Virus record (IMG/VR): IMGVR_UViG_3300023434_000001
Location: 1-48,434 of that record
DNA length: 48,434 nucleotides
Source of the DNA: a virus
Strand: one strand, 5' to 3'
Numbering within the stretch: position 1 is the first letter of the stretch; each line of letters opens with the position of its first letter. This document shows positions 3,356-48,434 of this stretch, one piece after another. The notes under the pieces were generated by a model, which was not told the origin of the DNA, did not search any database, and saw only the letters and a list, made by a program, of their open reading frames with translations. The position numbers and the translations under genes were made by a program.

Positions 3356-6300
3356 TTATTGAACTTTTGCGTAGTCTGGTGAAGGGTTAAATTCTAATTC
3401 TGTTGTACTTAATGCAAACCCTATTTTCCGTTGGAAATCATCAGTTGTTGTTGGCGAATCTTTTAGTATTGCCCCTGCTGTTGTGCTTACAAAGTAAGGT
3501 GATCCGGCTGTTAGTCCTGTTGTTGTATAAATCCCTTGTTTTAGAAATAAGCCCGCAGCATCAGCACTTATTGTTGCTAAAGCTATTAATAATACTCCAT
3601 CCGTAGTAGCAGCCGCATCAGCATCAGTTTTCCAGTACTTACCATCAGATTTTAAATAAACTAAGTTTCCGGCAACTAATGATTCCCCAGCGGTTGCAGT
3701 TTCTACTATTTTTATATCTTCTTCAAAATATGCATCACCAGCGACTTCTAATGTATGAGTTGGTACGTTTGTAGTTGCTCCATCATCTCCAATTCTCATT
3801 TGCCCTTGTGAAACTCTCCATCCTCCATAAGTTGTTGATGCTTCTATTGTTCGTAACATAGCTCCACCAGTAGTATCTTTTAATTCAGTATAATGAGTAC
3901 CATGAATTGTTAAAGATGACATTCTTATACCATCAGTCCAGCCATACGCATACATACCAGTAGGGGACAATGACATCATTTCAGTTTCAGCACCTCCTGA
4001 AGATGACATTTGATTAAATGTAAGCAGAGTTGCATTATGCTCAATATTCCAATAATTACCGGGAGATGATCCTGTTCCTGTTATTTCAATTTTATTTCCA
4101 TTAATAATTTTCTGAAGTGCATCCCACGTTGTTACTCCGGCTACCGTATTAGTAGTTGATTTATCAAAAGCATTGGTTACCTGTGCTGCTGTATAATCTC
4201 CTATTGTAGCCACTACTGCACCTGCTCTTGTAAATACTGAGGTCACATCGCCAGTCGCTAAGTCTGCAATAGACTGCGCTGTTACTGTTTTGATATTGTC
4301 CGAATCTGTAATATCCTGAATTATAACTTTATCACCAGTCGCAACGGTAACCCCTGTTATTGTTGCCCCATCTAAAGCAGCAACAACATTAGTTTCATTT
4401 GCGGTTAATTTATCACTATTAGCTTCTAATGCAGTAATTTGTGCGGCTGTTGCAAGTCCCGGTTGTGCATTAGTAGCTTTTTGACCATTAACGTAATCTA
4501 TGCTAATATTTCCAGTTGTTGCATTAAAATCATTGGCTGTAAAGCTTGCAACTCCCTGAGTTGAACCATCAGCAACCGCATCTGTGATTGCATGGGTATG
4601 ACTTGTAGTTGTTACCGCATTTGTACTTGTTCCGGTAGTTGTCGAAGGTGTTCCCATCGTAACGCTTCCAGTACCTGTAATGGTTGTGAAATCTAGTCCA
4701 TTTCCGGCTGCTACGCTGGTAACACCGTCTATTGGAGCATCAATCCAATTCGTACCATTACCAACTGCAAGTGATGATAGTATTTGCCCAGCCGTTCCAC
4801 TATCTCCACTTATATCTTTTAAGTCGGCTTCAAATTGAGCATTTTTATTAAAGGCGACTAAACTTTGACCGATTGTAATATAATCTTCCAAACCACCAGT
4901 CCCAGTACTTATGGTATTACCTTGTAGTTTAGAAAATCCATCTTTTACATAGTTTCCAAAGGTCAAAACACCAGCCCCTCCATAAAGCAAAGCTTCATTT
5001 TGAATAAGAATATCAGTTGCATTATCTCCAAACCTTCCATAATCACCTATTATAGCACCTGTGGTTTCAAGTGATCCTGTAATATCTAATTTTGTTCCAC
5101 TCCATGTAAAATTAGCATCACCTTCAAGTGTGCCGTCACCTGTCCATACTCCAACTTGATTGTCTACTGGTGTTCCTACTTTTGTAACGTCACCACCACC
5201 AGCAGGAGTTGAATAAGCCCCATTTGCATTTAAGAATTTAGTTGTAGTTCCGTCGCCCTTTGGTGCAAATCCATGTTTAGCTGAAGAAACATTTCCAGTT
5301 GTAATATCAGTAAATGTAATTGTGGCATCGCTTATTGTTTGGTCACCTGGATAAGTAACTTTATCATTATTAGTTTCTATATTGCCAACTAAAGCCGCTG
5401 TCATATAACCTGTTTGTGCGTTCGTTGCCGCCCTGTTACTGATTTCCTGAGTAGAGATACTCATTCCCCCTGTTGTTGCAGATGCGTTTAAAGTTACTGC
5501 TGTACTGTTGTCTGTTCCGGCTTGGTCAACATCTAAAGTGCTTCTCGCATTTATTGCAGCAACATCATCTATTAATGAAGCTCCAAATGTACTTATCGTT
5601 GTGCTTGCTGGCAAAACTAAAGTTTTAATATCGGCATCTACCTCTGAATCCATTAATGCCCCTGCTGCTGTTACGTTTGTAACATCTGCTGTTAATTTTG
5701 TAGTATTTACTACAACTTCATCAAACTTAGCTTTCGTTAATAGACCAGCCCTTGACGTACTTGCAGCAACTAATGTCGCATTTGTTCCATCTGAAGAATC
5801 AACATCTACTGTGGTTGTAGTTGCTGTTCCTTCTGATAAATTAGTTGAAACGTTTGTTGCTTTCGCATTATTTGCTGTATGTTGATCAAATATAGTTTTT
5901 GTCATTATGCCAGCGTCAGATGTGGTTGCACTACCTATTGTGGCATTTGTACCCGTACTTGAATTAATTGCAACAGCATTTGTTCCAGTAGATAGTGATA
6001 AATCTGTTCCTGTAATATCAGAAGTCATTGCAAATGTTCCAGTTTTTGCGGGAATTGTATTCGTGTAAGATGTTGCAGAAGTATTAGCAACAGAAATAGT
6101 ATTAACCCCCGTAGAAGTTCCCTTCATTGCTAATTTATCCTTATCGAAAGTCTTTAACCCAGTTACAGATTGTACAGAAGATAAAACCATGTCCCCAACA
6201 CCACCAGTTGCCCAGCTTAATTTCCTTGCTCCATCAGTAGTCATAACCTGATTAACTGTTCCGTCAGTGTTCGGCAGTTCATATACCGCGCTTTCTGATA

Positions 6301-30497: not shown

Positions 30498-31028
30498 ATG
30501 GATATTAAAAACCTAAGAACACCGCTTGATATTAAGGATATTGATTTTCGTATTCAATCTATAAACAAAGGCGGTTATGCAACTATTTTAGCGTATAAGA
30601 ACGCAAGAGTTGACATGAATAGGCTTGATGATGTTTGTGGTGCTGAAAACTGGCAACGTGACCACAAAGAGCTTAAAAACGTTATCTATGCCGGAATAGG
30701 TATTTACTTTAAAGATTCAGAACAATGGGTTTGGAAATGGGATGCAGGATCAGAATCATTTACTGAAAAACAAAAAGGCGAATCATCAGACAGTTTTAAA
30801 CGCTCTGGCTTTAATTGGGGCATTGGTAGGGAATTATACGACTATCCAGTAATTCAAGTAAAATTGAATGCTGACGAGTTTGAATTGAAAGATAATAAAG
30901 CCAGAGCCACATGGAATTTAAAGTTAAAACAATGGCGGTGGCATTCTGAATTTAAAGACGGCAAATTGGTTCGATTGGCAGCAAAAGACGAAAACAGTAA
31001 ATTAAGATTTAACTTTAAAACAGAATAA
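30498..31028 (+). CDS. Rad52-family single-strand annealing protein (Sak-like), 176 aa
   Basis: A recombinase that anneals complementary single strands in phage recombination. Family signs are the N-terminal NRLDDVCGAENWQ (41-53) and the segment SSDSFKRSGFNWGIGREL (96-113), matching the conserved K-R-A...F-G-I-G-R-x-L-Y core of Rad52/Sak annealases. The next two genes are its usual partners: a small conserved protein and an SSB-like protein. Confidence 0.82.
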   Translation: MDIKNLRTPLDIKDIDFRIQSINKGGYATILAYKNARVDMNRLDDVCGAENWQRDHKELKNVIYAGIGIYFKDSEQWVWKWDAGSESFTEKQKGESSDSFKRSGFNWGIGRELYDYPVIQVKLNADEFELKDNKARATWNLKLKQWRWHSEFKDGKLVRLAAKDENSKLRFNFKTE

Positions 31029-31029
31029 A

Positions 31030-31497
31030 ATGGAATCAGCAATAAGTATTTTCAGTAAATTACCTGAAACAAAAGAGCAAGTAAGTAGCTATGCTAAACT
31101 ACTGAGAGAATCGGTACTAAATGGTGAAGTAGAGCCGTTAAAATTCATGGCGCAAGTATCTGCATTCGAATTAATGTTAAAGCAGCTTAAAAACGATCAT
31201 TTGATTAAAGACTGCGCACTTGAAGAAGCTGAGAAACATGGTGCAAAATCATTCGAGCTAGGAAATGCAAAATACCAAATTAAAGAAGTTGGTACGAAGT
31301 ATGATTTTACCGGATGTCAAGACACTGAATGGGAAACATACCAGTCAAATGAATCTGACGCAAAGCTAAAAAGAACTGAAAGGGAAAAGCTTTTAAAATC
31401 CCTTACTCCTAACATGGAATTATTTAATTCCGATGGTGTGCAATTAGAATTACCAAAAAAAACATCTACAACTCAGGTTGTAATAATACTTAAATAA
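31030..31497 (+). CDS. Recombination-operon protein (155 aa)
   Basis: A helical acidic protein starting MESAISIFSKLPETKEQVS. It lies between the annealase and SSB-like genes with a one-base gap on each side. This type of protein commonly accompanies phage annealases in Bacteroidetes, possibly as an accessory factor, but I cannot name its family. Confidence 0.6.
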   Translation: MESAISIFSKLPETKEQVSSYAKLLRESVLNGEVEPLKFMAQVSAFELMLKQLKNDHLIKDCALEEAEKHGAKSFELGNAKYQIKEVGTKYDFTGCQDTEWETYQSNESDAKLKRTEREKLLKSLTPNMELFNSDGVQLELPKKTSTTQVVIILK

Positions 31498-31875
31498 ATG
31501 AGCAACTTATCAGAACAAGGGAAAATAACACAAGTATTAACTCCACAGGCAGGAACAAGTAAGGCGGGTAAGGAATGGAACAAACAAGATTTCGTTATCG
31601 AAACCCTTGACCAATACCCTAAAAGTATTTGCTTTACTTTATTTGGGGACAAAACAAGTTTGTTGAATAATTTAAAACAAGGCGACAATGTAGAAGTATT
31701 TTTTAACCTTGAATCCAGAGAATTTAATGAAAAGTGGTATCATAACGTTAATGCGTGGAAAGTTGAAACATTAGTTTCTGAACCTGTAAATGAAACACAA
31801 CAGAGCGTGCCGGATGCATTTAAAAACGAGCCGGAAGATAATAGCCAACAAGAAGAAGATGACCTTCCGTTTTGA
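31498..31875 (+). CDS. SSB-like OB-fold protein (DUF3127 type), 125 aa
   Basis: Binds single-stranded DNA to support the annealase and replication. The first about 100 residues fit the OB-fold pattern of DUF3127 (GKITQVLTPQAG; KSICFTLFGDK; WYHNVNAWKVE). The C-terminus EEDDLPF is the acidic tip that in SSBs recruits partner proteins. DUF3127 is characteristic of Bacteroidetes and their phages. Confidence 0.8.
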   Translation: MSNLSEQGKITQVLTPQAGTSKAGKEWNKQDFVIETLDQYPKSICFTLFGDKTSLLNNLKQGDNVEVFFNLESREFNEKWYHNVNAWKVETLVSEPVNETQQSVPDAFKNEPEDNSQQEEDDLPF

Positions 31876-39490: not shown

Positions 39491-39562
39491 AAGGGAATAG
39501 CTTTAGGTGAAGTCACGTCAGTCATTGTTGTATGGCGAAGCGAACCGTTTAAAATTAAACTA

Positions 39563-39823
39563 ATGATAGATGATTTTGATTTAGAAAAAGAAGAGCGTAA
39601 ATTTAGCGCAAAGATGCTAAAAGGCACGAAAGTAGCCCGTGCAAACAACATGAACCTAACTAAGTTTAAAACAGAGATAGAAAAAGGGCTTTTAACAACA
39701 AACGATGAAGACCAATGGACTTTTGATTATCAAAGCTTCCTTGGTGCAATATCAAACGGTATTTATGAAAGCCCGACCGAATGGGCAGAAGAATACTTTA
39801 ACGGGCGGTGGTCATTAGTTTAA
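39563..39823 (+). CDS. Cassette 1 protein (86 aa), unknown
   Basis: First cassette gene (cassette opens at 39528, TTGTAT...). An 86-aa acidic protein starting MIDDFDLEKEERKF and ending EEYFNGRWSLV, with W and Y at the C-terminus. Possibly a small interaction domain. The preceding leader has no Shine-Dalgarno. No family recognised. Confidence 0.6.
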   Translation: MIDDFDLEKEERKFSAKMLKGTKVARANNMNLTKFKTEIEKGLLTTNDEDQWTFDYQSFLGAISNGIYESPTEWAEEYFNGRWSLV

Positions 39824-39834
39824 TTTTTAATGGC

Positions 39835-39929
39835 ATACAACGGTTTGTGTAAGATTATGTAGCACAACCACAAATGATGATTAAAAGTACAAAGGCTGTA
39901 TGTGCTATTAATTTTACACTTTGTTATAG
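39835..39929 (+). repeat. attC1 (95 bp)
   Basis: R'' ATACAAC (39835-39841), L'' GGTTTGTGTAAGATT, L' AATTTTACACTTT, R' GTTATAG (39923-39929). The inner arms GTAGCACAACC and GGCTGTATGTGCT also pair. R'' pairs with the opening TTGTAT of cassette 1. Confidence 0.75.
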
Positions 39930-39948
39930 CCAGTTATTATTACGTACA

Positions 39949-40179
39949 ATGAAAATTGAAATGCAGAAAAGAAAGGCGGGAATATATGCCCAATGGTTTA
40001 GTATAGACGGATTGAGCGGTGGAAAAAGAACTACCTACTTAATATATGCGAACCAAGCCAAGACCTACGCACAAGCTGTTAGATTTTGGAATAAAACGTG
40101 GGGTGGACGTAATGGGAACAAAGCCTTTGTATTGAGAAATGCCGAGCCGTATAACCCTAGTTCATATTTAGCCTGTTAA
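39949..40179 (+). CDS. Cassette 2 protein (76 aa), unknown
   Basis: Start at 39949 is chosen because the longer frame would begin inside attC1. Sequence begins MKIEMQKRKAGIYAQWFSID, a compact alpha/beta protein ending YNPSSYLAC. No family. Cassette opens TTATAGCC at 39924 and closes with GGCTATAC(C). Confidence 0.55.
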   Translation: MKIEMQKRKAGIYAQWFSIDGLSGGKRTTYLIYANQAKTYAQAVRFWNKTWGGRNGNKAFVLRNAEPYNPSSYLAC

Positions 40180-40183
40180 TTGG

Positions 40184-40225
40184 CTATACCGGACGGGTGT
40201 ATGTTTAGTTTTTTAACGGATAAAT
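40184..40225 (+). repeat. attC2 remnant
   Basis: CTATACCGGACGGGTGTATG: R''-like box with C in place of A (CTATACC, 40184-40190; expected CTATAAC from the cassette's start). No clear R' follows, so the site looks truncated and the next cassette's opening bases are missing too. Confidence 0.45.
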
Positions 40226-40233
40226 AAAAAGAT

Positions 40234-40476
40234 ATGATTAAAGAAGATGAATTAAGAGCTGAAATAACAAAGCTATTGGATGCTCACAATAGTAACGAGA
40301 TAGACAGCAGAGATGAATGGTATAGGGAAATGGTATATTTTAGAGATGCAGTAGTTAAAAAATTAAATATACACATTGTTAGCAATTCTGTTAAATGCGG
40401 CAATTGTGATGTAGAAATAAAACAAGGAGAAGTTTCTTATTGTGAAGAATGTTATGAAAGAGCGGTAAAATGGTAG
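40234..40476 (+). CDS. Cassette 3 zinc-ribbon protein (80 aa)
   Basis: Helical N-terminus (MIKEDELRAEITKLLDAHN) then a zinc ribbon: CGNC (about 57-60) and CEEC (about 72-75). Probably a small nucleic-acid or protein binding factor. Its cassette lacks the normal start box because attC2 is degraded. Confidence 0.55.
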   Translation: MIKEDELRAEITKLLDAHNSNEIDSRDEWYREMVYFRDAVVKKLNIHIVSNSVKCGNCDVEIKQGEVSYCEECYERAVKW

Positions 40477-40487
40477 CATTTAATTGT

Positions 40488-40546
40488 TGCTAACTGAAAG
40501 TATAAGATACGTTGCTTTTCGCAATGGATTTTATACGGTGTTACCT
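40488..40546 (+). repeat. attC3 (59 bp)
   Basis: R'' TGCTAAC (40488-40494), L'' GTATAAGATACG, terminal hairpin TTGC-TTTTC-GCAA, L' GGATTTTATACG, R' GTTACCT (40540-40546). Compact and well paired. Confidence 0.7.
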
Positions 40547-40590
40547 GAGCGAAGCGGACTGTTAAATTAAAATTTTAAAGCGTAGGAAAT

Positions 40591-40947
40591 ATGAATTATT
40601 ATAGAGTTTACACAGCCATAAAAGATGGTGAAAAAGTACCAAGGAAAGCAAAGAAAGTGATATTAGGTAAGCTAATGAATAAGGCAAAATTAAAAAAACT
40701 GCTTGATAGTGTGATAATAGGAGAGCAGGCACATACGATGTATGAGACCGCAGACATTAAGCCTTATTTATTTTGCCCACATTGCGGATGCCAACAAACA
40801 AGAAGTAGTGGTAATCTAACTGCACACCCTGAGCATTGGGAATATGAATACTGCTTGAGATGCAATAAGGTTGTTGGTTACATTGATAACAGCCCATATA
40901 CACATGCTTTAGAATGCAAGGACAATGATTATGACCCTGTTTTTTAG
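40591..40947 (+). CDS. Cassette 4 zinc-ribbon protein (118 aa)
   Basis: A basic N-terminal half (KDGEKVPRKAKKVILGKLMN) precedes CPHC (about 62-65) and CLRC (about 90-93), a zinc ribbon like those in restriction alleviation (Lar-type) or DNA-binding proteins. Cassette opens TTACCTG (40541) and closes with CAGGTAA. Confidence 0.55.
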   Translation: MNYYRVYTAIKDGEKVPRKAKKVILGKLMNKAKLKKLLDSVIIGEQAHTMYETADIKPYLFCPHCGCQQTRSSGNLTAHPEHWEYEYCLRCNKVVGYIDNSPYTHALECKDNDYDPVF

Positions 40948-40972
40948 TGTGGTGGCATTTTAATTTAATTGC

Positions 40973-41115
40973 AGGTAATGTTCGACTGCTAAGTTTCGTT
41001 TTGCCCGCCTTTCAAGGAAAGGATTGAGGGTAAAATGAAATTTAACACTGGTTAAGGATTGTTGGGTTTCGCTTACCCACTGCACTTTTAAGTAATAGGC
41101 AGTCGAACATTAAGG
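40973..41115 (+). repeat. attC4, long branched variant with A|TT core (143 bp)
   Basis: R'' AGGTAAT and R' ATTAAGG replace the usual AAC/GTT. P1 is TAATGTTCGACTGC (40976-40989) / GCAGTCGAACATTA (41099-41112), 14 bp. Inside: hairpin TTTCGTTTTGCCC / GGGTAAAATGAAA with CCTTTC/GAAAGG tip, a conserved AATTTAAC, then GGGTTTCGCTTACCC. It shares this plan with attC14. The sequence up to 41000 also forms the window's last 22 bases. Confidence 0.7.
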
Positions 41116-41156
41116 CTAATAGTTGGATTGGGAATTATTAATTTAAACTTACATAT

Positions 41157-41408
41157 ATGTCTAAGAATAGTAAAGAAAACTACAAAGTACACGCCCATTT
41201 TCATGGCGAAGTAACACCTGAATTTGCAGAGGTGTTTAATAAAATGGTTGTAGCTGGTGCAAAATTTGCAGATAGCGGAATTAATAATGGAGATACAAAA
41301 AAGAGAACGAGTAAACCATTTTGCAACTTTACTGTAAAAAATTCTCACTTTTGCCGTCGATGTCATAGGTGCGATATGTGCGACCAACAACCAAAAAATG
41401 GTTTGTGA
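41157..41408 (+). CDS. Cassette 5 protein with Cys cluster (83 aa)
   Basis: Starts MSKNSKENYKVHAHFHGEV. The C-terminus has HFCRRCHRCDMCDQQ, a likely metal site of four cysteines. The cassette is the clearest of all: opening TTAAGGCTAATAG (41110) and closing CTATTAGCCTTAAC (41417-41430), 13 complementary bases. Function unknown. Confidence 0.55.
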   Translation: MSKNSKENYKVHAHFHGEVTPEFAEVFNKMVVAGAKFADSGINNGDTKKRTSKPFCNFTVKNSHFCRRCHRCDMCDQQPKNGL

Positions 41409-41423
41409 AGCGAACGCTATTAG

Positions 41424-41487
41424 CCTTAACGGTACTCAGCTATGAAGCGGCTGAGGAACGAAGCTGATTTATGAGCTGATGTTATAG
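41424..41487 (+). repeat. attC5 (64 bp)
   Basis: R'' CCTTAAC (41424-41430), GGTACTCAGCTATG ... GGCTGAG, AAGCTGATTTATGAGCTGAT, R' GTTATAG (41481-41487). Arms pair as CTCAGC/GCTGAG with further AGCT repeats. Confidence 0.7.
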
Positions 41488-41524
41488 TGAGTTTTTTGAG
41501 TGGAAATGATTTAATAATTTATAT

Positions 41525-42025
41525 ATGAGAAAAGGAATAGGATCCCATCAATCCGCAAATATGAAAAAAGATGAATGGCTTACGCCTCCCGAAATTATTA
41601 AAGCATTGGGGGAATTTACCCTTGATCCTTGCGCCCCAGTGGTGCGCCCGTGGGAAATGGCAAATAAGCATTTAACCACAGAAGATGATGGACTGAAACA
41701 GCCGTGGGAGGGCAGGGTATGGTGTAACCCACCCTACGGACTTGAAGCAGCGAAATGGCTTGACAAGTTGAGCGAACACGGCAACGGAATAGCTTTAATA
41801 TTTGCCAGAACCGAAACCAGGATGTTTTTCGAATATGTGTGGAAACGTGCAACTGCCGTGTTGTTTATTGAGGGCAGGCTTTACTTCCACCATGTTGACG
41901 GATCCAAAGCCCGAGCGAATGCAGGCGCACCTTCGGTATTAATAGCTTATGGTAACAATAACGCAGAAACCTTGAAGAATTGTACAATCAAGGGTAAATT
42001 TTTGGCGTTGGGAAATTCACTATAA
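41525..42025 (+). CDS. Cassette 6: phage Dam-type DNA N6-adenine methyltransferase (166 aa)
   Basis: Matches the short phage Dam family (PF05869 type): WLTPPEIIKALGEFTLDPCA (18-37) contains the AdoMet-binding DPCA, and CNPPYG (67-72) is the catalytic NPPY. It would methylate adenine, protecting phage DNA or marking it. The gene is visibly richer in G and C than its neighbours, a sign of transfer. The cassette opens TTATAGTGA and closes TCACTATAAC, nine complementary bases. Confidence 0.85.
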   Translation: MRKGIGSHQSANMKKDEWLTPPEIIKALGEFTLDPCAPVVRPWEMANKHLTTEDDGLKQPWEGRVWCNPPYGLEAAKWLDKLSEHGNGIALIFARTETRMFFEYVWKRATAVLFIEGRLYFHHVDGSKARANAGAPSVLIAYGNNNAETLKNCTIKGKFLALGNSL

Positions 42026-42050
42026 CGGTAAGTTGTATGCTTTGTTGGCG
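42020..42050 (+). repeat. attC6 (31 bp, minimal)
   Basis: R'' CTATAAC (42020-42026), AAG, loop TTGTATG, CTT, R' GTTGGCG (42044-42050). AAC-GGT-AAG pairs with CTT-T-GTT. Much shorter than the rest; perhaps deleted in its stem. R'' overlaps the stop codon of the methyltransferase. Confidence 0.6.
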
Positions 42051-42080
42051 TACCAAATATTAATAAATAAAATTTAAAAA

Positions 42081-42431
42081 ATGAAAGATTCAAATTTACA
42101 CCCACTTTTCAATGAAATACTTAATAGCCAATTAAGTATACAAAATGTTACCAACTTTCAATTTACGGATGAAATGCAATGGCTAAGTAACCTTTTGCCA
42201 AAACGTTACAACTGTGAATTAAGAAAAAAAGGCGTGCATTGCTACGATACTACTGGCGAAGGTATCAGTGATGACCACATGACGCACGATAAATACAACC
42301 CTGAAACAGACAACCAATGGATGCTAATAACGAAAGCCATTAAACAGAAGTTTGGCAAAAGGTTGATGGAAATATATAGCCAAGAGACACAATACAACTC
42401 TAAGTTTACCGTATACCTACGACCTGAGTAA
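42081..42431 (+). CDS. Cassette 7 protein (116 aa), unknown
   Basis: A mixed alpha/beta soluble protein starting MKDSNLHPLFNEILNSQ. It contains RYNCELRKKGVHCYD and ends SKFTVYLRPE. Family unknown. Its cassette opens TTGGCG but closes TGGTAAT, which do not match, so this cassette may be recombinant. Confidence 0.55.
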   Translation: MKDSNLHPLFNEILNSQLSIQNVTNFQFTDEMQWLSNLLPKRYNCELRKKGVHCYDTTGEGISDDHMTHDKYNPETDNQWMLITKAIKQKFGKRLMEIYSQETQYNSKFTVYLRPE

Positions 42432-42440
42432 ATTTATTGT

Positions 42441-42509
42441 TGGTAATGACTAGTGTATGTTGTCGGAATTTGTTTTTCACAAATTATGCACTATGACACG
42501 TTGTTACCT
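42441..42509 (+). repeat. attC7 (69 bp)
   Basis: R'' TGGTAAT (42441-42447), loop hairpin AATTTGT-TTTTC-ACAAATT, R' GTTACCT (42503-42509). The only site where a T in R'' faces a G in R' (a G.T pair), breaking the covariation rule. Confidence 0.6.
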
Positions 42510-42571
42510 GTCTTTGTTTTATTTTTTTTTAGGGAGGGTTTAATTTTCTTTAAAAATAAATAGCAATACAC

Positions 42572-42602
42572 TTGCATATGTAATACAATTGCTATATATT
42601 CG
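42572..42602 (+). promoter_or_regulatory. Promoter inside cassette 8
   Basis: -33 TTG (42572-42574), a 20-nt spacer, -7 TATATTCG (42595-42602; one base from consensus). Shows that this cassette carries its own promoter, as toxin-antitoxin cassettes usually do. Confidence 0.55.
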
Positions 42603-42634
42603 CAGTATTAAATTATTAATTAAAAATTATTCAA

Positions 42635-42814
42635 ATGAAAACATTTAAAACAAAAGGATTGCCTTATTATGTAAAAGGATGTAATAATGTATTTAATGCA
42701 GCAACAACACTTATCGAAAATAAGATAGGGGTAACAGAAAATGACTTAGAAGAAGTGACTACTGATTTAATACCTATTGGAGCAACTATATTCTGTTACA
42801 CTAAAAAACTATAA
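42635..42814 (+). CDS. Cassette 8 first protein (59 aa), TA-like partner
   Basis: ATG at 42635, TAA at 42812-42814, one base before the next ATG. Starts MKTFKTKGLPYYVKGCNNVF. A small basic/hydrophobic protein preceding a ribbon-helix-helix protein. It could be the partner (toxin or target) in a toxin-antitoxin pair. No toxin family recognised. Confidence 0.5.
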   Translation: MKTFKTKGLPYYVKGCNNVFNAATTLIENKIGVTENDLEEVTTDLIPIGATIFCYTKKL

Positions 42815-42815
42815 A

Positions 42816-42974
42816 ATGAGTAAAGTACAACTACCAGTAAGGATTGAGCAAGATGATTTAAACACCTTAAAGGAACTTGCGGAACAAGACAATAGACCAC
42901 TAAGCAATTATGTTGATACTGTGCTTAAAAACCATATTGCTTTGAAAAAGCAAAAGAGCGTTGGCAAAAAATAA
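42816..42974 (+). CDS. Cassette 8 ribbon-helix-helix protein (52 aa)
   Basis: ATG at 42816; a longer frame from 42777 would overlap the upstream gene. LPVRIEQDDLNTLKELAEQ then RPLSNYVDTVLKNHI is the RHH fold (strand, helix A, helix B) typical of antitoxin DNA-binding domains. Probably represses its own promoter at 42572-42602. Confidence 0.65.
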   Translation: MSKVQLPVRIEQDDLNTLKELAEQDNRPLSNYVDTVLKNHIALKKQKSVGKK

Positions 42975-42982
42975 AATATTGC

Positions 42983-43050
42983 AGGTAACGGTTTGGCTAT
43001 GAAGCGGATTTTGTTTTTCACAAAATATGATTTATGAGCCGTTGTTATAC
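42983..43050 (+). repeat. attC8 (68 bp)
   Basis: R'' AGGTAAC (42983-42989), L'' GGTTTGGCTATGAAGCGG, hairpin ATTTTGT-TTTTC-ACAAAAT, then ATTTATGAGCCGTT and R' GTTATAC (43044-43050). Cassette opens TTACCTG and closes CAGGTAA. Confidence 0.75.
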
Positions 43051-43101
43051 ACTGGCACTTTACCCACAGAAATTAAATACGAACTAAAAGAAAAAATAGA
43101 G

Positions 43102-43392
43102 ATGGCAACTTACGAATTACCAGACACAGTAAAAGAACTATTTGAACAAGGAGAAAACCAGTACAGAATAATTGACTATGCGCCAGAGATGGAAATGGAT
43201 AATAACCAAAGTATGGAATGCTTCCTTGACCATATTGGAGCAACTGGAGACAATATTAAGTGCCACGATGGTACACAGGTTACATTAATACATCCAGATT
43301 ATGGAATGATGTACGTAGTTGACGCAGGAGGGTTGGGGGATTTTTTCTCTCACGGATTTGAGGTAAGTTTACACGAGAGCGATAATGATTAG
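43102..43392 (+). CDS. Cassette 9 acidic protein (96 aa)
   Basis: The ATG at 43102 is preferred over one at 43027, which lies inside attC8. The acidic protein starts MATYELPDTVKELFEQGENQ and ends HESDND. It contains DYGMMYVVDAGGLGDFF. Family unknown; possibly an anti-defence or regulatory acidic protein. Opens TTATACAC, closes GTGTATAAC. Confidence 0.55.
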   Translation: MATYELPDTVKELFEQGENQYRIIDYAPEMEMDNNQSMECFLDHIGATGDNIKCHDGTQVTLIHPDYGMMYVVDAGGLGDFFSHGFEVSLHESDND

Positions 43393-43399
43393 TGCTTGT

Positions 43400-43460
43400 G
43401 TATAACGAATGGTTGTATGTGGCGTGGCTTTTCGCCATGACACATGACAACGTGTTAGGT
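43400..43460 (+). repeat. attC9 (61 bp)
   Basis: R'' GTATAAC (43400-43406), GTTGTATGTGGCGTGGC, loop TTTTC, GCCATGACACATGACAAC, R' GTTAGGT (43454-43460). Long, well-paired arms (GTTGTATGTG/CACATGACAAC). Confidence 0.75.
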
Positions 43461-43511
43461 GCTTTTAAATAAAAAAATAGGGAAGGAATTTTTAATTTAA
43501 AATATAAAACA

Positions 43512-44117
43512 ATGAGAACTAATTTAGAGAAATGGAATTATTACTTATCAATTGTTAAAAAGCGTGAAGAAGAGTATATTAAGAATAATGTGGATAAAAT
43601 GCCAGAATACGTTTATTTTATTTATCCTACAGGTAAGATTAGAAAGTTGCAGATAACATATATAAGTTATAGTAACCGATTGTATTTTTATGGCAAAAAA
43701 CCAACAAGGGACGATGTTAAGAAAATAAACGACTATGTAATTGATAACAGCCCAATGACCTTAGATAATGTTCATGTAGGATGGAAAAGTATTGGTGAAA
43801 AATACAATAGCAGTAGTGCTTTTAAATATACCGAAAGAGACCAATATTTAAGCAAACAGGAGGTTGAAATAAAGAGCAAGGAAGCGACTAAGAAAAAGGA
43901 AGATGAAGAAATATTATTAAACAATGGACACATAAGATGTGTATACTGCAATAAGGTTGTTCCAGAAAAAGATTCAATTAGCCATACTATTATATTTCAA
44001 AATAGCAGACAAGACCCATACAGTAGAACTGGGTGGAAAAAGTTTGTTGATAGAAAGACAAATAAATACTGTTCTGGCAAATGTGGAGGTAATGACCAAA
44101 TGGCACACGAAGGTTAA
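43512..44117 (+). CDS. Cassette 10 protein with C-terminal zinc motif (201 aa)
   Basis: The largest cassette protein of unknown type. Starts MRTNLEKWNYYLSIVKKREE; a beta-rich segment YFIYPTGKIRKLQITYI; a charged helix around 110-130; then CVYCNK (about 142-147) and a C-terminal YCSGKCGG, probably a zinc site of two knuckles. Opens TTAGGTGC, closes GCACCTAAC. Confidence 0.6.
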   Translation: MRTNLEKWNYYLSIVKKREEEYIKNNVDKMPEYVYFIYPTGKIRKLQITYISYSNRLYFYGKKPTRDDVKKINDYVIDNSPMTLDNVHVGWKSIGEKYNSSSAFKYTERDQYLSKQEVEIKSKEATKKKEDEEILLNNGHIRCVYCNKVVPEKDSISHTIIFQNSRQDPYSRTGWKKFVDRKTNKYCSGKCGGNDQMAHEG

Positions 44118-44169
44118 TCTAATGGTTTTGCAAAAACCAAAGTGCGGTGGGATTATTTTATTTTATTGC

Positions 44170-44263
44170 ACCTAACGGTCTATGTAAGATTTGAAGCGTA
44201 ACCAGTACCGATGATTAATTGCGTAAACGCCATATACGCTTTTAATTTTACATTTTGTTATGG
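44170..44263 (+). repeat. attC10 (94 bp)
   Basis: R'' ACCTAAC (44170-44176), L'' GGTCTATGTAAGAT, inner GAAGCGTAACC...GCGTAAACGCC, L' AATTTTACATTTT, R' GTTATGG (44257-44263). Same architecture as attC1. Confidence 0.75.
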
Positions 44264-44279
44264 CGAGTTAATTAGATAG

Positions 44280-44528
44280 ATGAAAAAAATTGAATTTGAA
44301 ACTTACCGGGATTTAACAAGTGGCTACAATATTGCAGGTATGAAATCAGAGAATCCGAGTGCTATAAATTTTTTGAGCTACAAGAAATATAAGGTTACAA
44401 TTGAAGAGATAGAAGAACCTAAAGCCGTTTTGATTAAAAGATTACGAGAGCTATTGAAAAAAACTACTGGATTCAACCAAGCAAGTAGCATTAAAGATGA
44501 AATTAAACGGCTTGAACTACTACCCTAA
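44280..44528 (+). CDS. Cassette 11 protein (82 aa), unknown
   Basis: ATG at 44280, only 22 bases after the cassette start. A basic protein starting MKKIEFETYRDLTSGYNIAG; C-terminal amphipathic helix (AVLIKRLRELLKKTTGF). Opens TTATGGCG and closes CGCCATAAC, eight complementary bases. Family unknown. Confidence 0.55.
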   Translation: MKKIEFETYRDLTSGYNIAGMKSENPSAINFLSYKKYKVTIEEIEEPKAVLIKRLRELLKKTTGFNQASSIKDEIKRLELLP

Positions 44529-44532
44529 TTCG

Positions 44533-44597
44533 CCATAACGGTTCGTGTAAGTTGCGTTGAACACAGACGTTGATTAGTTGAACTGACTTAGTTTTAG
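44533..44597 (+). repeat. attC11 (65 bp)
   Basis: R'' CCATAAC (44533-44539), GGTTCGTGTAAGT ... ACTTA, R' GTTTTAG (44591-44597). Divergent R' box but it pairs with the closing box of the next cassette (AAAACTTTTAAAAC). Confidence 0.6.
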
Positions 44598-44641
44598 AAG
44601 TTTTTGGGAGGGATTTTTTTTTAATTTTTAAATATATAATT

Positions 44642-45067
44642 ATGAATATACCACAATTTAGAGTTTGGGACAAAAGTAAATATAGAATGATTCAGGGCGA
44701 TTTACTTAATATTTCTTTTGGAGGGAATAATTTTGGAGTATATTATCTTGAAGAAAGCGAATTATGTTTAGGCAATGAAGAAGATTTTATATTAATGATG
44801 TGGACTGGATTAACCGACCAAAACAATACCAGAATATATGATGGGGATATTATTGAATTTATTGAGTTTAATTTTGAACATGGAATGGAGGTTGAATACG
44901 AAAGAAAAGGAGTGGTTAGTGTTGATTTTGGATGTGACGGAGTTTGTACATCTTTTACTATATTGGGAGAAAAAATGGAAATTCCATTAACTTTTATCAC
45001 GGAGATTGCGAGTGATACTATCCTTGTAATTGGAAATACAATGAAGGAGAAACCATTGAATGTGTAA
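44642..45067 (+). CDS. Cassette 12 YopX-family protein (141 aa)
   Basis: YopX (PF09643) small phage/plasmid protein of unknown role. Signatures: FRVWDKSKYRM at the N-terminus (6-16), MMWTGLTDQNNTRIYDGDII (about 52-71), and the C-terminal VIGNTMKEKPLN. Length matches the family. Found in a cassette coupled with the next gene. Confidence 0.8.
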   Translation: MNIPQFRVWDKSKYRMIQGDLLNISFGGNNFGVYYLEESELCLGNEEDFILMMWTGLTDQNNTRIYDGDIIEFIEFNFEHGMEVEYERKGVVSVDFGCDGVCTSFTILGEKMEIPLTFITEIASDTILVIGNTMKEKPLNV

Positions 45068-45401
45068 CTGCAAAAACATAATACCACAAAGCAAAGAATG
45101 TTATTCTAATATGATTACGGTAGAAATACCTGAACACATGAAAGAATATAGAGACAATCGAGTAAATGCTGGACTAAGCAGTAAAATTTCAATTGACCCA
45201 TGTATTTATAATGAAATATGCGAATTGTGGAAACTTGAAATTATAACTTATGGTTCTTGTTGTGGACACAATAAACGGGAATCATTTGTTAATGTTGCCG
45301 ATGAAAATATTTCCCAAATGTTAGAAATGGGATATATTCAGAATCACCATGACAAAAATCGTAAGGATACGTTTCGTCTTAAAAGTTTTGAAAAAACTTA
45401 G
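45060..45401 (+). CDS. Cassette 12 second protein (113 aa)
   Basis: ATG at 45060 overlaps the YopX stop by 8 bases; an alternative start is 45111 (MITVEIPEHMKEYRDNR). The core, VEIPEHMKEYRDNRVNAG and TYGSCCGHNKRE, resembles small phage proteins often encoded near YopX genes. The short Cys-rich N-terminus (MCNCKN) is optional. Unknown function. Confidence 0.6.
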   Translation: MCNCKNIIPQSKECYSNMITVEIPEHMKEYRDNRVNAGLSSKISIDPCIYNEICELWKLEIITYGSCCGHNKRESFVNVADENISQMLEMGYIQNHHDKNRKDTFRLKSFEKT

Positions 45402-45417
45402 TGCGGTTGGAAAACTT

Positions 45418-45486
45418 TTAAAACGGTCAAACTTATGCAAACTTTGATTAAACGCTTGACACAATGCAATTTACACTTTGTTATAA
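45418..45486 (+). repeat. attC12 (69 bp)
   Basis: R'' TTAAAAC (45418-45424), GGTCAAACTTATGC, inner GATTAAACGCTTGACACAATGC, L' AATTTACACTTT, R' GTTATAA (45480-45486). Cassette start TTTTAGAAGTTTT pairs with AAAACTTTTAAAA (12 of 13). Confidence 0.65.
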
Positions 45487-45577
45487 GCCGTTGTTTGTCT
45501 AAAAGTTCGTCTAAAGTTTAACTAATTAGACGTTGCTTAGACATTTTTAGCTGAACTTTAGACAATGGCTTTATAAC
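45481..45577 (+). other. Cassette 13, ORF-less structured cassette (~97 bp plus attC)
   Basis: Opens TTATAAGCC and closes GGCTTTATAAC with no ORF between. Instead it holds nested inverted repeats: TTGTCTAAAAGTTC (45495-45508) / GAACTTTAGACAA (45553-45565) and CGTCTAA (45508-45514) / TTAGACG (45526-45532). A small RNA, a regulatory element or a decayed cassette are the options. Confidence 0.6.
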
Positions 45578-45630
45578 GTTTGGGTAAGTTTAGTGCGCCA
45601 ATTACGCAGAATTTTGATAAAAGAGATAAA
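45571..45630 (+). repeat. attC13 remnant
   Basis: R'' TTATAAC (45571-45577) and L'' GTTTGGGTAAGTTT are present, followed by GCGCCAATTACGC. No R' partner is found before the next gene, so the site appears truncated. The start box of cassette 14 is missing as well. Confidence 0.45.
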
Positions 45631-45658
45631 GTAATAATAACCTAATTAGTGAACGGAT

Positions 45659-45982
45659 ATGAAAAAAGCAGATGCAAAATACATACTTGAAGCAATAGAG
45701 TGGATGAATAAAAATACAACTGTTGCAAGTGTAGATATGGAAACATACGGCAATTTATTTATGAATAGCCAAAATTTATTAATGGATGAAGTGAACGATG
45801 CCGAAAAAAGCGATGAACCAGCATTAAATTTACCCGTTGTTAACGGCTGTGCTTTGTTAAATGAAGTACTAGACCACCAGCAGGAGGTAATAAGCAGCCC
45901 TATTCGCTTCAATGGAGTACATATAGATACAATTAAGCAACTATTTGGCAAGTACGGAATAATGTACAAGGATATGTTTTAG
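45659..45982 (+). CDS. Cassette 14 protein (107 aa), unknown
   Basis: An acidic helical protein starting MKKADAKYILEAIEWMNKN; segments NLPVVNGCALLNEVLDHQ and GVHIDTIKQLFGKYGIMYKD. No family recognised. Its 5' box is lost but it ends with the long attC14. Confidence 0.55.
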   Translation: MKKADAKYILEAIEWMNKNTTVASVDMETYGNLFMNSQNLLMDEVNDAEKSDEPALNLPVVNGCALLNEVLDHQQEVISSPIRFNGVHIDTIKQLFGKYGIMYKDMF

Positions 45983-45988
45983 CATTGC

Positions 45989-46130
45989 CGTTAATGTCTC
46001 TGAGCTAAATACTGTTAACCCCGCATTTGGGACAAATGAGATAGGGGTTAATGGAATTTAACTCCTTGTTAGGATTACGTTCGATTGCGAACAGGAAAGG
46101 CTACTAGATCACGGCTCAGAGACATTAGGA
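45989..46130 (+). repeat. attC14, long branched variant with A|TT core (142 bp)
   Basis: R'' CGTTAAT and R' ATTAGGA. P1 TAATGTCTCTGAGC (45992-46005) / GCTCAGAGACATTA (46114-46127), 14 bp. Inner P2 TTAACCCC/GGGGTTAA capped by CATTTGGGACAAATG, conserved GAATTTAAC and TTGTTAGGATT, and TTCGATTGCGAA. It aligns with attC4 end to end, differing by compensatory changes in each stem. Confidence 0.7.
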
Positions 46131-46165
46131 GTTATTCTAAATACTGAAAATTAAAAATTATTGAT

Positions 46166-46300
46166 ATGTCGAAGAAATTAACAAAAGATGAAGCCGCAAA
46201 AAAGCGAGACTTTCACAGAAAAAGAGCTAAATATTACGATAAGAAATACATTGAATGCAAAGCCAAAGAGAAGCGCATAGGCTTCAAGTGGTATGATTAA
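46166..46300 (+). CDS. Cassette 15 small basic protein (44 aa)
   Basis: ATG at 46166, TAA at 46298-46300. MSKKLTKDEAAKKRDFHRKR; lysine- and arginine-rich, helical, ending RIGFKWYD. Cassette opens TTAGGAGTTA and closes TAACTCCTAA (10 complementary bases). Probably nucleic-acid binding. Confidence 0.55.
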   Translation: MSKKLTKDEAAKKRDFHRKRAKYYDKKYIECKAKEKRIGFKWYD

Positions 46301-46350
46301 TTTTTGATGAAAGGATTTATAGATTGAGAGGCACGAGCAATCGTATTAAC

Positions 46351-46445
46351 TCCTAACGGTTTGGCTATGTTTAGTTGCCGAACGATAAACTTCAAAAACT
46401 AAGCACAAATTTTCAGCGGCAATTAAATATGAGCCGTTGTTATAA
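46351..46445 (+). repeat. attC15 (95 bp)
   Basis: R'' TCCTAAC (46351-46357), L'' GGTTTGGCTATGTTTAGTTGCCG, L' CGGCAATTAAATATGAGCC, R' GTTATAA (46439-46445). Arms GGTTTGGCT/GAGCC and TTGCCG/CGGCAA pair. Confidence 0.75.
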
Positions 46446-46459
46446 AACGTTTTTTAGCG

Positions 46460-46726
46460 ATGGGAAAATATACAGGAATTACAGGAAAGTTAAGTATTGG
46501 CGATGTTATCCATGTAGGTAATCCAATACGAAAAGAAGAATATTGCTACTACGGAGTAACCGACATTGACGGCAATAAAGCCAAGACTGGATTTAGAACA
46601 TTTAATGCTAATATTTATCACGATAAGTTTATTTATGAGTACGGAAAGAAAGATTCGCAATATGATAATTGCTATACAGTAAGTAGTTTGGAAGCCGCAA
46701 AAGAAGCGGGGGCAAATGTTTTATAA
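46460..46726 (+). CDS. Cassette 16 protein (88 aa), unknown
   Basis: A beta-rich protein starting MGKYTGITGKLSIGDVIHVG; segment EEYCYYGVTDIDGNKAKTG; C-terminal helix SSLEAAKEAGANVL. SH3-like barrel is possible. The stop lies within R'' of attC16. Opens TTATAAAAC, closes GTTTTATAA. Confidence 0.55.
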   Translation: MGKYTGITGKLSIGDVIHVGNPIRKEEYCYYGVTDIDGNKAKTGFRTFNANIYHDKFIYEYGKKDSQYDNCYTVSSLEAAKEAGANVL

Positions 46727-47052
46727 TGGCCTTGCTAAACGTAGTTTCTGGGTATGTAAGAATTTAAAATTGAAATGATGGAAGAAACACAAAAGATTCT
46801 AAAAAAACTTGCTGCTGCTGGACTATTTCATCCAGATGGATTTAACGAACAAATACAAGATGATTTTCTAGAGGACTTAAAACCCTTTAGCTCTGTAACT
46901 GAAAATGATATTTCAATTTTAGAGGCTGAGAATACCAAGGAAACTCAAAAAGACCAGAAGTAGCTATGCTCCAATTACGTTTAGCTATTGTTAGAAAATC
47001 GGTAATCCCGTTTACCCGGGAAAACTTTTTGAGGTTAGCAAGGCCATTAGAA
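46721..47052 (+). repeat. attC16, A|TT variant split by a gene (332 bp)
   Basis: Outer arms TAATGGCCTTGCTAA (46724-46738) and TTAGCAAGGCCATTA (47035-47049) are exact complements, 15 bp. R'' is TTATAAT and R' is ATTAGAA. Between them sits a 62-aa ORF, and then a 3' half (TTTAGCTATTGTTAG...GTTTACCCGGGAAAAC) that aligns with attC4 and attC14. The gene thus lies where the first internal stem-loop of the long attC would be. Confidence 0.6.
46775..46963 (+). CDS. ORF nested within attC16 (62 aa)
   Basis: ATG at 46775 (or 46778). Acidic helical protein starting MMEETQKILKKLAAAGLFHP, ending ENTKETQKDQK. Preceded by an AT-rich leader like other cassette genes. It lies inside the palindrome of attC16; secondary insertion of a cassette, or a gene carried in an attC loop, would explain it. 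Function unknown. Confidence 0.5.
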   Translation: MMEETQKILKKLAAAGLFHPDGFNEQIQDDFLEDLKPFSSVTENDISILEAENTKETQKDQK

Positions 47053-47105
47053 AACAGACAGCCTGAGAATTGAGGCACGAAATGAAGGGATTTCTGTTTT
47101 CTAAC
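47047..47105 (+). other. Cassette 18, ~59-bp ORF-less mini-cassette
   Basis: Opens TTAGAAAACAG (47047) and closes CTGTTTTCTAAC (47094-47105), 11 complementary bases. There is no room for a gene. It contains ATTGAGGCACGA, nearly the same as ATTGAGAGGCACGA (46324-46337) at the tail of cassette 15, so it may be a deleted relative of that cassette. Confidence 0.6.
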
Positions 47106-47145
47106 GGACAGCGGTATGTTGCGTTTTTTATTTACGGATTAAAAA
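47099..47145 (+). repeat. attC18 remnant
   Basis: R'' TTCTAAC (47099-47105) and GGACAGCGGTATGTTGCG, then AT-rich DNA without an R' box. Looks truncated, and the next cassette lacks the opening box expected from its closing TGCTAAC. Confidence 0.45.
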
Positions 47146-47160
47146 CTAAAAATTAATTAT

Positions 47161-47421
47161 ATGACACGAGATGAAATAGTAGATTTCTTAGAATGGGCAA
47201 AGGAAGAAGGACAATTGCAGTTCCCAGAAAGCAAAAAAGTAGATATGGCAGAAATGTACATAAAAGAGCATGATGTAGTAAATAAAACATGCAATATACC
47301 GTATGTTAGCAATAACGAAGTGGCGGTTTGCCCTAAATGCAAAGGTGCTTCAAATAGCTACATACATGGATTTCGGACATACTGTGATAGATGTGGAGGA
47401 ACTGGGCAAACTGATTGCTAA
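47161..47421 (+). CDS. Cassette 19 zinc-ribbon protein (86 aa)
   Basis: Helical N-terminus (MTRDEIVDFLEWAKEEGQLQ) and a C-terminal zinc ribbon with CPKCKG (about 57-62) and CDRCGG (about 75-80), the CxxCxG pattern of DnaJ-like zinc domains. Likely a small protein-binding or nucleic-acid-binding factor. The TAA stop is part of the R'' box. Confidence 0.6.
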   Translation: MTRDEIVDFLEWAKEEGQLQFPESKKVDMAEMYIKEHDVVNKTCNIPYVSNNEVAVCPKCKGASNSYIHGFRTYCDRCGGTGQTDC

Positions 47422-47476
47422 CGGTTCGGCTGTATGTGGCGCGGTTTTTCACCGTGACATATAAAGCTTGTTACCT
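47416..47476 (+). repeat. attC19 (61 bp)
   Basis: R'' TGCTAAC (47416-47422), GGTTCGGCTGTATGTGGCGCGG, loop TTTTTC, CACCGTGACATATAAAGC, R' GTTACCT (47470-47476). Shares its design with attC9. Confidence 0.7.
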
Positions 47477-47542
47477 GCTTTTTGTTTTTAATATTTTTAG
47501 GGATGGCAAACTAATTTTGAAAAAATTAATCTTTTCTTGGAT

Positions 47543-47588
47543 TATATTTGTATATACAAAATAAAGAACTATATTTGTGTATACAAAA
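47543..47588 (+). promoter_or_regulatory. Promoter overlapped by two operator-like palindromes
   Basis: Promoter -33 TTTG (47547-47550), 19-nt spacer, -7 TATATTTG (47570-47577). A 19-bp motif TATATTTGTnTATACAAAA occurs twice (47543-47561, 47570-47588; one difference). Each copy contains the palindrome TTTGTATATACAAA (first copy perfect), 27 bp apart. One covers the -33 box, the other covers the -7 and start site. Ideal operators for the RHH repressor at the end of this cassette. Confidence 0.65.
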
Positions 47589-47599
47589 ACGATAAAGAC

Positions 47600-47788
47600 A
47601 TGAAAAACGAAACAAGATTTAACGAAATAAGCAGCAAACTAAACGAAATGTTTAAAGGTAAAAGTGAAACTAAAAAAGATGAATTAGTAAAAGGTTTAAA
47701 AAACTGGTGTAAGATAAACGCAAACTCAGCAGACAAAGCCAAATTAGAGGCTATTAAAAGCTTTTTGGCTGACAATAATATTTTTTAA
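47600..47788 (+). CDS. Cassette 20 first protein (62 aa), small helical
   Basis: ATG at 47600 just after the operators; a longer frame from 47537 would overlap the promoter. Starts MKNETRFNEISSKLNEMFKG, helical and lysine-rich, ending SFLADNNIF. First gene of a three-gene operon in the last cassette. Function unknown; possibly an antitoxin or a small structural partner. Confidence 0.5.
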   Translation: MKNETRFNEISSKLNEMFKGKSETKKDELVKGLKNWCKINANSADKAKLEAIKSFLADNNIF

Positions 47789-47790
47789 TT

Positions 47791-48237
47791 ATGAAAATAC
47801 CTGAAATAAAAGGAAAGAATATACTTATAATCGGATGCCCTGCTAGTGGCAAAACATTTATGAGTGCATTGTTTAATTCTAATGATCATGAAATATTTCA
47901 CACTGACGACTACATAAAGTTTGGCTACAAAGAAAGCATGTATCAGTGTTTGAGTGATGTTATAAAATGCAAAAAGAATACAATTACTGAAGGTGTACAA
48001 GGATATAGAATGCTTAGAAAAGGAGTAGAATTAAATAACTATTACCCAGATATGATTATTGAGTTAAAAATAACTGAGCAGCTAATGTTCTCTACTTACA
48101 AGAAAGAGAGAAGCGCAAAAAAAATTAAGTACTTGGCAGGATTTAATAAGATGCACGATAAAATATTGACTGACTACAAAAATATGGCAAACAACAAAAA
48201 GCCTGAATGGATAATAATAAATAACGATTATGACTAA
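47791..48237 (+). CDS. Cassette 20 P-loop kinase-like protein, toxin candidate (148 aa)
   Basis: Walker A GCPASGKT at residues 15-22, followed by HTDDY (37-41), like the acidic pair after the P-loop in zeta-toxin and nucleotide kinases. TITEGVQGYRML is the next conserved-looking segment. It could phosphorylate a nucleotide, nucleic acid end or cell wall precursor. The companion RHH gene overlaps its end by 8 bases, which makes a toxin-antitoxin pairing likely but unproven. Confidence 0.6.
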   Translation: MKIPEIKGKNILIIGCPASGKTFMSALFNSNDHEIFHTDDYIKFGYKESMYQCLSDVIKCKKNTITEGVQGYRMLRKGVELNNYYPDMIIELKITEQLMFSTYKKERSAKKIKYLAGFNKMHDKILTDYKNMANNKKPEWIIINNDYD

Positions 48238-48412
48238 AGAAAACCTAAAGCCCAAAATGACACGAATGACTGACACGATGAAATCGGACATTCAAAAAAG
48301 CGCAGATAAAAATAACGAAGGTGTATTCGACAGAGAATTACGAGACTTAATCCAAATCGGTTTGAAAAACCGAAAAGGGAAGGGGAAAATATTAAAAATT
48401 AATTGCAGGTAA
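48230..48412 (+). CDS. Cassette 20 ribbon-helix-helix (Arc-like) protein (60 aa)
   Basis: RMTDTMKSDIQKSADKNNEG then RELRDLIQIGLKNRKG follow the Arc/RHH pattern: a strand, helix A, helix B with basic tail. It would bind the tandem palindromes at 47543-47588 and repress the operon. The gene continues across the contig ends (same as 1-126). The stop TAA is inside the AGGTAA box that closes the cassette. Confidence 0.65.
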   Translation: MTKENLKPKMTRMTDTMKSDIQKSADKNNEGVFDRELRDLIQIGLKNRKGKGKILKINCR

Positions 48413-48434
48413 TGTTCGACTGCTAAGTTTCGTT
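48287..48434. repeat. Right terminal repeat plus 22-base alternative junction
   Basis: 48287-48412 equals 1-126. At 48413 the two copies part: the left copy goes on with CTAGGGG, the right copy with TGTTCGACTGCTAAG. Bases 48399-48434 match 40965-41000 exactly (36 bases), i.e. the end of cassette 4 and the first arm of attC4. So the cassette 20 end has been joined to a long attC of the attC4 type in some molecules. Confidence 0.8.

Follow-up and report, generated by a model that had tools for sequence, protein, structure and literature searches.

The window, i.e. the whole 48,434-nucleotide stretch of DNA that was analysed, is a viral contig with a portal protein, a terminase, a replication initiator and a DnaB-like helicase. 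Relatives of the portal protein are found in phages of Flavobacterium, Bacteroides, Parabacteroides and Croceibacter. From ∼39.5 kb to the contig end lie some 18 small-gene cassettes. Ordinary sites between the cassettes are of the type TAACGGTTYGGCTATG...GCCGTTGTTA, and complementary R boxes are present at both cassette ends, e.g. TTATAGTGA (41482) and TCACTATAA (to 42025). As with integron and phage attC sites, there are R and L boxes, the cut lies next to AAC/GTT and the cleaved AAC is followed by a conserved G. The ordinary sites of the array also share the open spacer and the bulged G, and cassette ends are complementary over 8–14 nt.

The pattern TAACGGTTYGGCTATG matches at least 120 viral and at least 117 genome stretches, the latter mostly from Bacteroidota among the matches listed, and the isolated Polaribacter phage P12002S has a match to one ordinary site of the window. 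Phage attC clusters without an integrase are known, including that of Polaribacter phage P12002L; recombination by an integron integrase in an assay is known only for other phage attC sites (PMC9892861). An integrase with an I2 domain was not found near the window array. The window encodes no tyrosine recombinase, and an enzyme from elsewhere must therefore act. DnaB relatives were dropped as a route to homologous arrays, as no array was found downstream of DnaB in the two contigs read through (L047 and L050).

Three composite sites in the cassette array

Three sites of the array have a more elaborate layout. The features are as follows (positions are those of the window).

39528–48412, + strand: cassette array, about 18 ordinary and composite sites, all genes on the + strand
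40979–41429, + strand: mobile unit 1 (attC4), with core, R box A, segment S′, inverted copy B, gene and terminal R box
40976–40989, + strand: left outer arm of unit 1, the cleaved half-site (R box end, cut point, spacer, start of L″ box); exact inverted repeat of 41099–41112
40979–41051, + strand: core of unit 1, an ordinary attC (spacer, L″, terminal hairpin, L′ GAAATTTAAC and the G that precedes R box A)
41052–41109, + strand: S′ of unit 1, 58 nt, with R box A (TTAAGG), a GGGT...ACCC hairpin and the arm copy
41099–41122, + strand: inverted copy B of unit 1 (arm GCAGTCGAACA and R box TTAAGGCTAATAG)
41157–41408, + strand: gene of unit 1, 83 aa, without a Pfam match
45995–46356, + strand: mobile unit 2 (attC14), with core 45995–46068, S′ 46069–46124 (56 nt), R box B at 46125 and terminal R box 46347–46356
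46727–47104, + strand: mobile unit 3, with core 46727–46990 (gene inside the attC loop) and S′ 46991–47046 (56 nt)
47047 and 47093–47104, + strand: right end of unit 3, R box B and terminal R box, no gene beyond B
46775–46963, + strand: 62-aa open reading frame in the attC loop of unit 3, read from the sequence
48399–48434, + strand: contig end, where the last cassette's terminal R box meets the unit 1 core at AA|T; the same 36 nt as 40965–41000

In all three sites, right half A consists of the L′ box and R box of an ordinary attC (AATTTAAC and GTTA-GGATT), and is followed in order by segment S′, an outer right arm and a second R box, B. R boxes A and B are related direct repeats (TTAAGG at 41052 and 41110, TTAGGA at 46069 and 46125, TTAGAAAA at 46991 and 47047). 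The end of the left R box and the spacer recur, exactly inverted, as the outer right arm; in the third site the outer stem spans 46724–47049. The predicted cut points of unit 1 are 40978|40979 and 41429|41430, and its R boxes TTAAGGCTAATAG (41110) and CTATTAGCCTTAA (41417–41429) are perfectly complementary over 13 nt.

A first-pass annotation had described attC4 and attC14 as long, branched sites whose stems differ in sequence but keep pairing. The elements it listed are all present: perfect 14-bp outer stems in attC4 (TAATGTTCGACTGC, 40976–40989, with GCAGTCGAACATTA, 41099–41112; 137 nt overall) and attC14 (TAATGTCTCTGAGC, 45992–46005, with GCTCAGAGACATTA, 46114–46127; 136 nt overall), inner stems, which are imperfect (TTTTGCCC/GGGTAAAA and TTAACCCC/GGGGTTAA), the shared AATTTAAC and GTTA-GGATT, and a third hairpin in each. 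The arms are not due to chance. Exact TAATG...CATTA arms of at least 11 nt within 450 nt occur in the window only at attC4, attC14 and 46724–47049; the other loci compared have none, the longest being 10 nt. Both DNA strands fold far below dinucleotide shuffles (z −4.5 to −6.0), and the two sites fold well as RNA (z −6.3 and −5.8).

Its proposal of an attC-related recombination site with several arms is borne out, and the anatomy and recombination-site identity of the composite sites are well supported. They are not a distinct long class of attC; each consists of a canonical attC to which an inverted copy of its own cleaved half-site is appended. It is likewise well supported that S′ ends in this exact inverted copy B, which comprises R box and spacer. 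The kinship of attC4 and attC14 is one of shared layout; common descent is not demonstrable. No exact copies of either core were found elsewhere in IMG/VR. When AATTTAAC-N3–8-GTTANGGATT was tried as a family probe, it gave 43 IMG/VR matches, none with the outer stem, and the motif alone is not diagnostic.

Thirteen composite sites in nine records

Sites with this one architecture number 13, in nine records: the window (3), L069, L095 (3), L117, L166, L195, L257, L309 and L318. Three of the 13 thus come from one contig and three from another, and all counts below are to be read with this in mind. The detector was anchored on cassette R boxes and the A/B repeat; an exact 9-nt R-box match was required, and mismatches in the arms were allowed. 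Twelve sites score at least 17, and shuffled sequence reaches a maximum of 15. The thirteenth, L309, was added by an exact-arm scan over more loci. Another stretch that looked like a composite site (L143, 11896–12249) was dropped, since it has no cassette R box.

The arms are 12–17 nt long. Over their first 12 positions, 156 of 156 pairs are Watson–Crick, and pairing is kept despite sequence change, as the first-pass annotation had it: ten of the 12 positions vary, most of them showing three or four bases, and the cross-match of arms between sites is 3.1/9. The A-B box similarity is 6.1/9 versus 2.6/9, and none of 20,000 permutations reaches 6.1/9. When R and L boxes are examined as inverted repeats, half A, with R″ and L boxes, is present in 13/13 sites, and the cassette ends are complementary over 10–14 nt. 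Copy B is perfectly complementary, also over 10–14 nt, to the far-end R box of its own cassette, with which A pairs as well; B matches the neighbouring upstream box at 5–9 of 12 positions. As B is complementary to its own far R box, the inverted copy totals 20–28 bp in the circular unit. By eye, the bulged G (ATGAGCC) seen in ordinary sites is absent from the composite L stems, and the mismatch at position 10 is kept in 9/13 A halves and erased in B. The position of the gene within the unit varies between the attC loop, S′ and the stretch past B, and some units have no gene. A transposon or MITE with terminal repeats was rejected as an identity for these units because each copy has different arms and the boxes follow the rules of cassettes. 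S′ was also considered as a tandem duplicate of the cassette start and this too was rejected, there being no similarity beyond the R box in most sites.

The compensatory changes that the first-pass annotation had read from the two stems are not shown to stem from co-mutation from one ancestor. Pairs were counted directly rather than through a covariance model, because no structure emerged when ordinary sites were aligned with MAFFT and passed to RNAalifold, the halves being misaligned. As no imperfect arm appears in the mismatch-tolerant search, re-copying or strong selection at the DNA level fits better than co-mutation. The perfect arms could also be recent templated copies without function, with B arising by snap-back during failed recombination or hairpin replication and kept by chance. 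This explanation, which we consider unlikely, suits the exactness of the inverted copy, ∼11–14 nt either side of the cut point, and the lack of common sequence in most of the inserted S′. The A-to-B distances (56, 56, 56, 57, 58, 60, 68, 79, 82, 175, 176, 180 and 429 nt), however, cluster at 56–60 nt in six sites of four records. Decayed arms are absent even with mismatches allowed, whereas the A and B boxes have diverged, and three open reading frames read through B in one frame.

A structured RNA, a leader or regulator that happens to overlie the site, had also been raised by the first-pass annotation and is now disfavoured. Both window sites do fold well as RNA and lie upstream of + strand genes. 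On the other hand, the Rfam search of the window returned only a single tRNA, with no match of a curated covariance model at the sites; the arms contain no imperfect pair such as G-U; the paired bases are the recombination boxes and the cut point; and composite sites occur in units without a downstream gene (46727–47104 of the window, and L257). The RNA explanation is very improbable, and a recombination site remains the preferred reading.

The L257 record, an Owenweeksia MAG, contains a gene-less mini-cassette of 86 bp twice (2584–2669 and 3666–3751). Both copies adjoin a GAAGCGCTA arm, and the sequence beyond the arm differs.

Cut points and recombinases

Several lines of sequence comparison indicate that the site is probably cut at AA|Y and that the attC core travels 5′ of the gene. 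Such cutting would place all parts of a composite site in one mobile unit, with the gene inverted relative to attC. In Flavobacteriia arrays beside a recombinase (L363, L364, L366, L367, L369 and L192), R′ is the reverse complement of R″ for nine bases, and at position 10 most cassettes have A in R′ versus G in the reverse complement of R″. This mark is reversed in the window cassettes 41482–42025, 43045–43405 and 44258–44538, from which it follows that the genes of the window have an inverted orientation with respect to attC. Bottom strands of attC have a conserved G (PMC2727003), to which the G that follows the cleaved AAC corresponds. When B is masked in the fold predictions, the window strand has the greater stability in 13/13 sites.

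A comparison of Polaribacter phages P12002S and P12002L (L378, L379) provides a joint. A 914-bp unit is inserted exactly at GCAGGTAA|C, and the flanks are identical: on the left over 613 nt, where the compared fragment ends, and on the right over 969 nt. The end boxes of this unit do not match each other, and it may be fused or the product of several steps. The unit (P12002S, 30775–31689) carries a methyltransferase gene, is absent from that place in P12002L and has an exact AA|C joint; P12002L has a related gene elsewhere, behind a different core.

At the contig end of the window, the terminal R box of the last cassette adjoins the unit 1 core in an AA|T joint, and at the contig start the same R box is next to another core. 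This contig-end joint lies inside a 14-nt repeat, and homology or assembly could be alternative causes. Evidence of recombination at the predicted point comes from the P12002S/L joint for ordinary sites, and for attC4 from the contig-end joint only. The window also has a 126-nt terminal repeat (1–126 is identical to 48287–48412), after which the next base differs (C versus T). The last cassette is followed by two different joints, a pattern that array variants within the population would be expected to give.

The standard parse, with the core in the upstream cassette and a cut at G|TT, was rejected. Under it the arm and R box A would belong to different cassettes; it also conflicts with the P12002S/L joint and splits open reading frames that start inside attC. 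Such frames, starting in an attC loop or S′, are found at 40234–40476, 42081–42431, 45659–45982 and 47161–47421 of the window and also in L069 and L095. They run through the R box, and the cut follows the first base of a codon (GTT or ATT) in 7/7, which would allow protein ends to be exchanged in frame.

An invertible switch has been considered as well, whereby recombination between the inverted copies flips the core and S′ and turns a gene on or off. Inverted copies of 20–28 bp do lie on either side of a segment of the circular unit, the genes point the opposite way to attC, and a start codon lies inside S′ in L069, L095a and L095b. Yet ordinary cassettes without B are likewise inverted, the repeat in the integrated array is only 12–17 nt and no flipped allele was seen, so that a switch of this kind is hardly credible.

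In several Flavobacteriia genomes, the array begins just behind a gene with a two-part match to the integron integrase model. The structures nearest to a Flavobacterium recombinase of this type are XerC-like, XerA and IntI4, and compared with IntI4 (2A3V) ∼42 residues are missing at the I2 position, a stretch that we take to be I2 itself. The arrangement of an I2-less tyrosine recombinase directly before an attC-like array is seen in L363 (7846–14918), L366 (8424–17575), L364, L367, L369 and L192/L297. Searches of the IntegronFinder style that need the extra domain would miss such arrays. In phage contig G003 an integrase-like gene lies directly beside a composite unit; this complete, small integron-like set (L358, 583–1839) comprises the recombinase, a putative attI side and cassettes including the composite unit, with cassette genes and recombinase gene on the same strand. 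Complete integrons are nearly absent from Bacteroidetes according to IntegronFinder 2.0 (PMC9024848). The finding suggests that Flavobacteriia and their phages possess an integron-like platform that is poorly annotated.

Two predicted folds and a proposed lock

The composite site is predicted to be bistable, with two mutually exclusive hairpins. In the circularised unit, the predicted energy minimum pairs the cut half-site with B in 13/13 sites, with a gain of 5–25 kcal/mol; when B is masked, the R box pairs with A in 10/13. These predictions ignore proteins and kinetics. The central spacer is open in the A fold; the predicted B fold, the more stable of the two, seals it.

The element is the attC of an integron-type cassette that also carries, in the same mobile unit, an inverted copy B of its own cleaved half-site, placed 56–60 nt past the normal partner half A (less often 68–180 nt, once 429 nt). 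On the single strand that recombines, pairing of the cleaved half-site (R box, AA|Y, spacer) with A would give a hairpin of the ordinary attC kind, in which the central spacer stays open and the polarity mismatch of the family is kept. Pairing with B would give a perfect duplex of 20–28 bp across the cut point, in a forked (three-way) hairpin. With the spacer sealed and the asymmetry marks lost, recombination of the cassette might be lowered or depolarised. The recombinase that acts on a locked cassette would be a host enzyme in trans.

A bistable, self-locking attC is the best reading of the composite sites, and is given about an even chance of being right. The evidence is comparative or predicted throughout. 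We infer that the B fold arises inside cells and lowers recombination, because it seals the spacer and removes polarity marks, and because spacer pairing has a known effect: in a VCR site without extrahelical bases it lowered integration 8.5x10^4-fold, and loss of extrahelical bases weakened strand choice (Bouvier et al., 2009, PMC2727003). IntI1 data may not be transferable to recombinases that lack the I2 region. The spacer-paired VCR mutants mut20 and mut21 of the same study resemble the composite site in their fully paired spacer beside the cleaved R box. The composite site, unlike these mutants, is natural and would be switchable, since half A is still present.

The strongest alternative to a lock is that the B fold is itself the preferred substrate, a forked active site in which a perfect double-stranded core site is rebuilt from one strand; the functionless copy ranks third. 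The model for the alternative is the filamentous phage CTXphi, whose attP1 and attP2 lie ∼90 bp apart in opposite orientation and form a forked hairpin for XerC/XerD (PMC3089051). As in CTXphi attP(+), inverted core-site copies pair on one strand and internal hairpins are left as prongs (PMC3089051). A forked substrate would also suit the recombinases of the Flavobacteriia arrays, which lack ∼42 residues at I2 and are closest to XerC-like and XerA structures, and the strictly Watson–Crick arms. However, most cassettes of the same arrays have no B and yet evidently recombine, and B shares no sequence across sites. The CTXphi copies have a fixed dif-like sequence, whereas the composite sites differ each time and have an ordinary attC half nested inside; no dif-like XerC/XerD sequence was found in the arms, which differ between sites. 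A forked active site is possible, although on balance doubtful, and the lock is preferred.

The composite sites differ from integron and phage attC sites in their added inverted cleaved half-site, in the absence (by eye) of the bulged G and in their position 5′ of the gene; the cleaved base may also differ, the cut being at AA|T where other sites have AA|C. No description of an attC that carries its own cleaved half-site as an inverted copy was found in the literature searched, most subscription journals being outside it. In described attC sites, strand choice and efficiency rest on asymmetry, i.e. extrahelical bases and an open spacer (PMC2727003). A natural site with an asymmetric half and a perfectly paired alternative would make the role of these marks testable in nature, and would represent control of recombination at the level of the cassette. 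Tentatively, a Bacteroidota integron family with an I2-less recombinase might possess a built-in, sequence-independent switch, in which an inverted copy of the cleaved half-site acts as a rival folding partner and determines if a cassette recombines and with what polarity.

Several composite cassettes (attC14, the third window site and L309) have a recurring GAGGCACGA motif at their 3′ ends, immediately ahead of the terminal R box.
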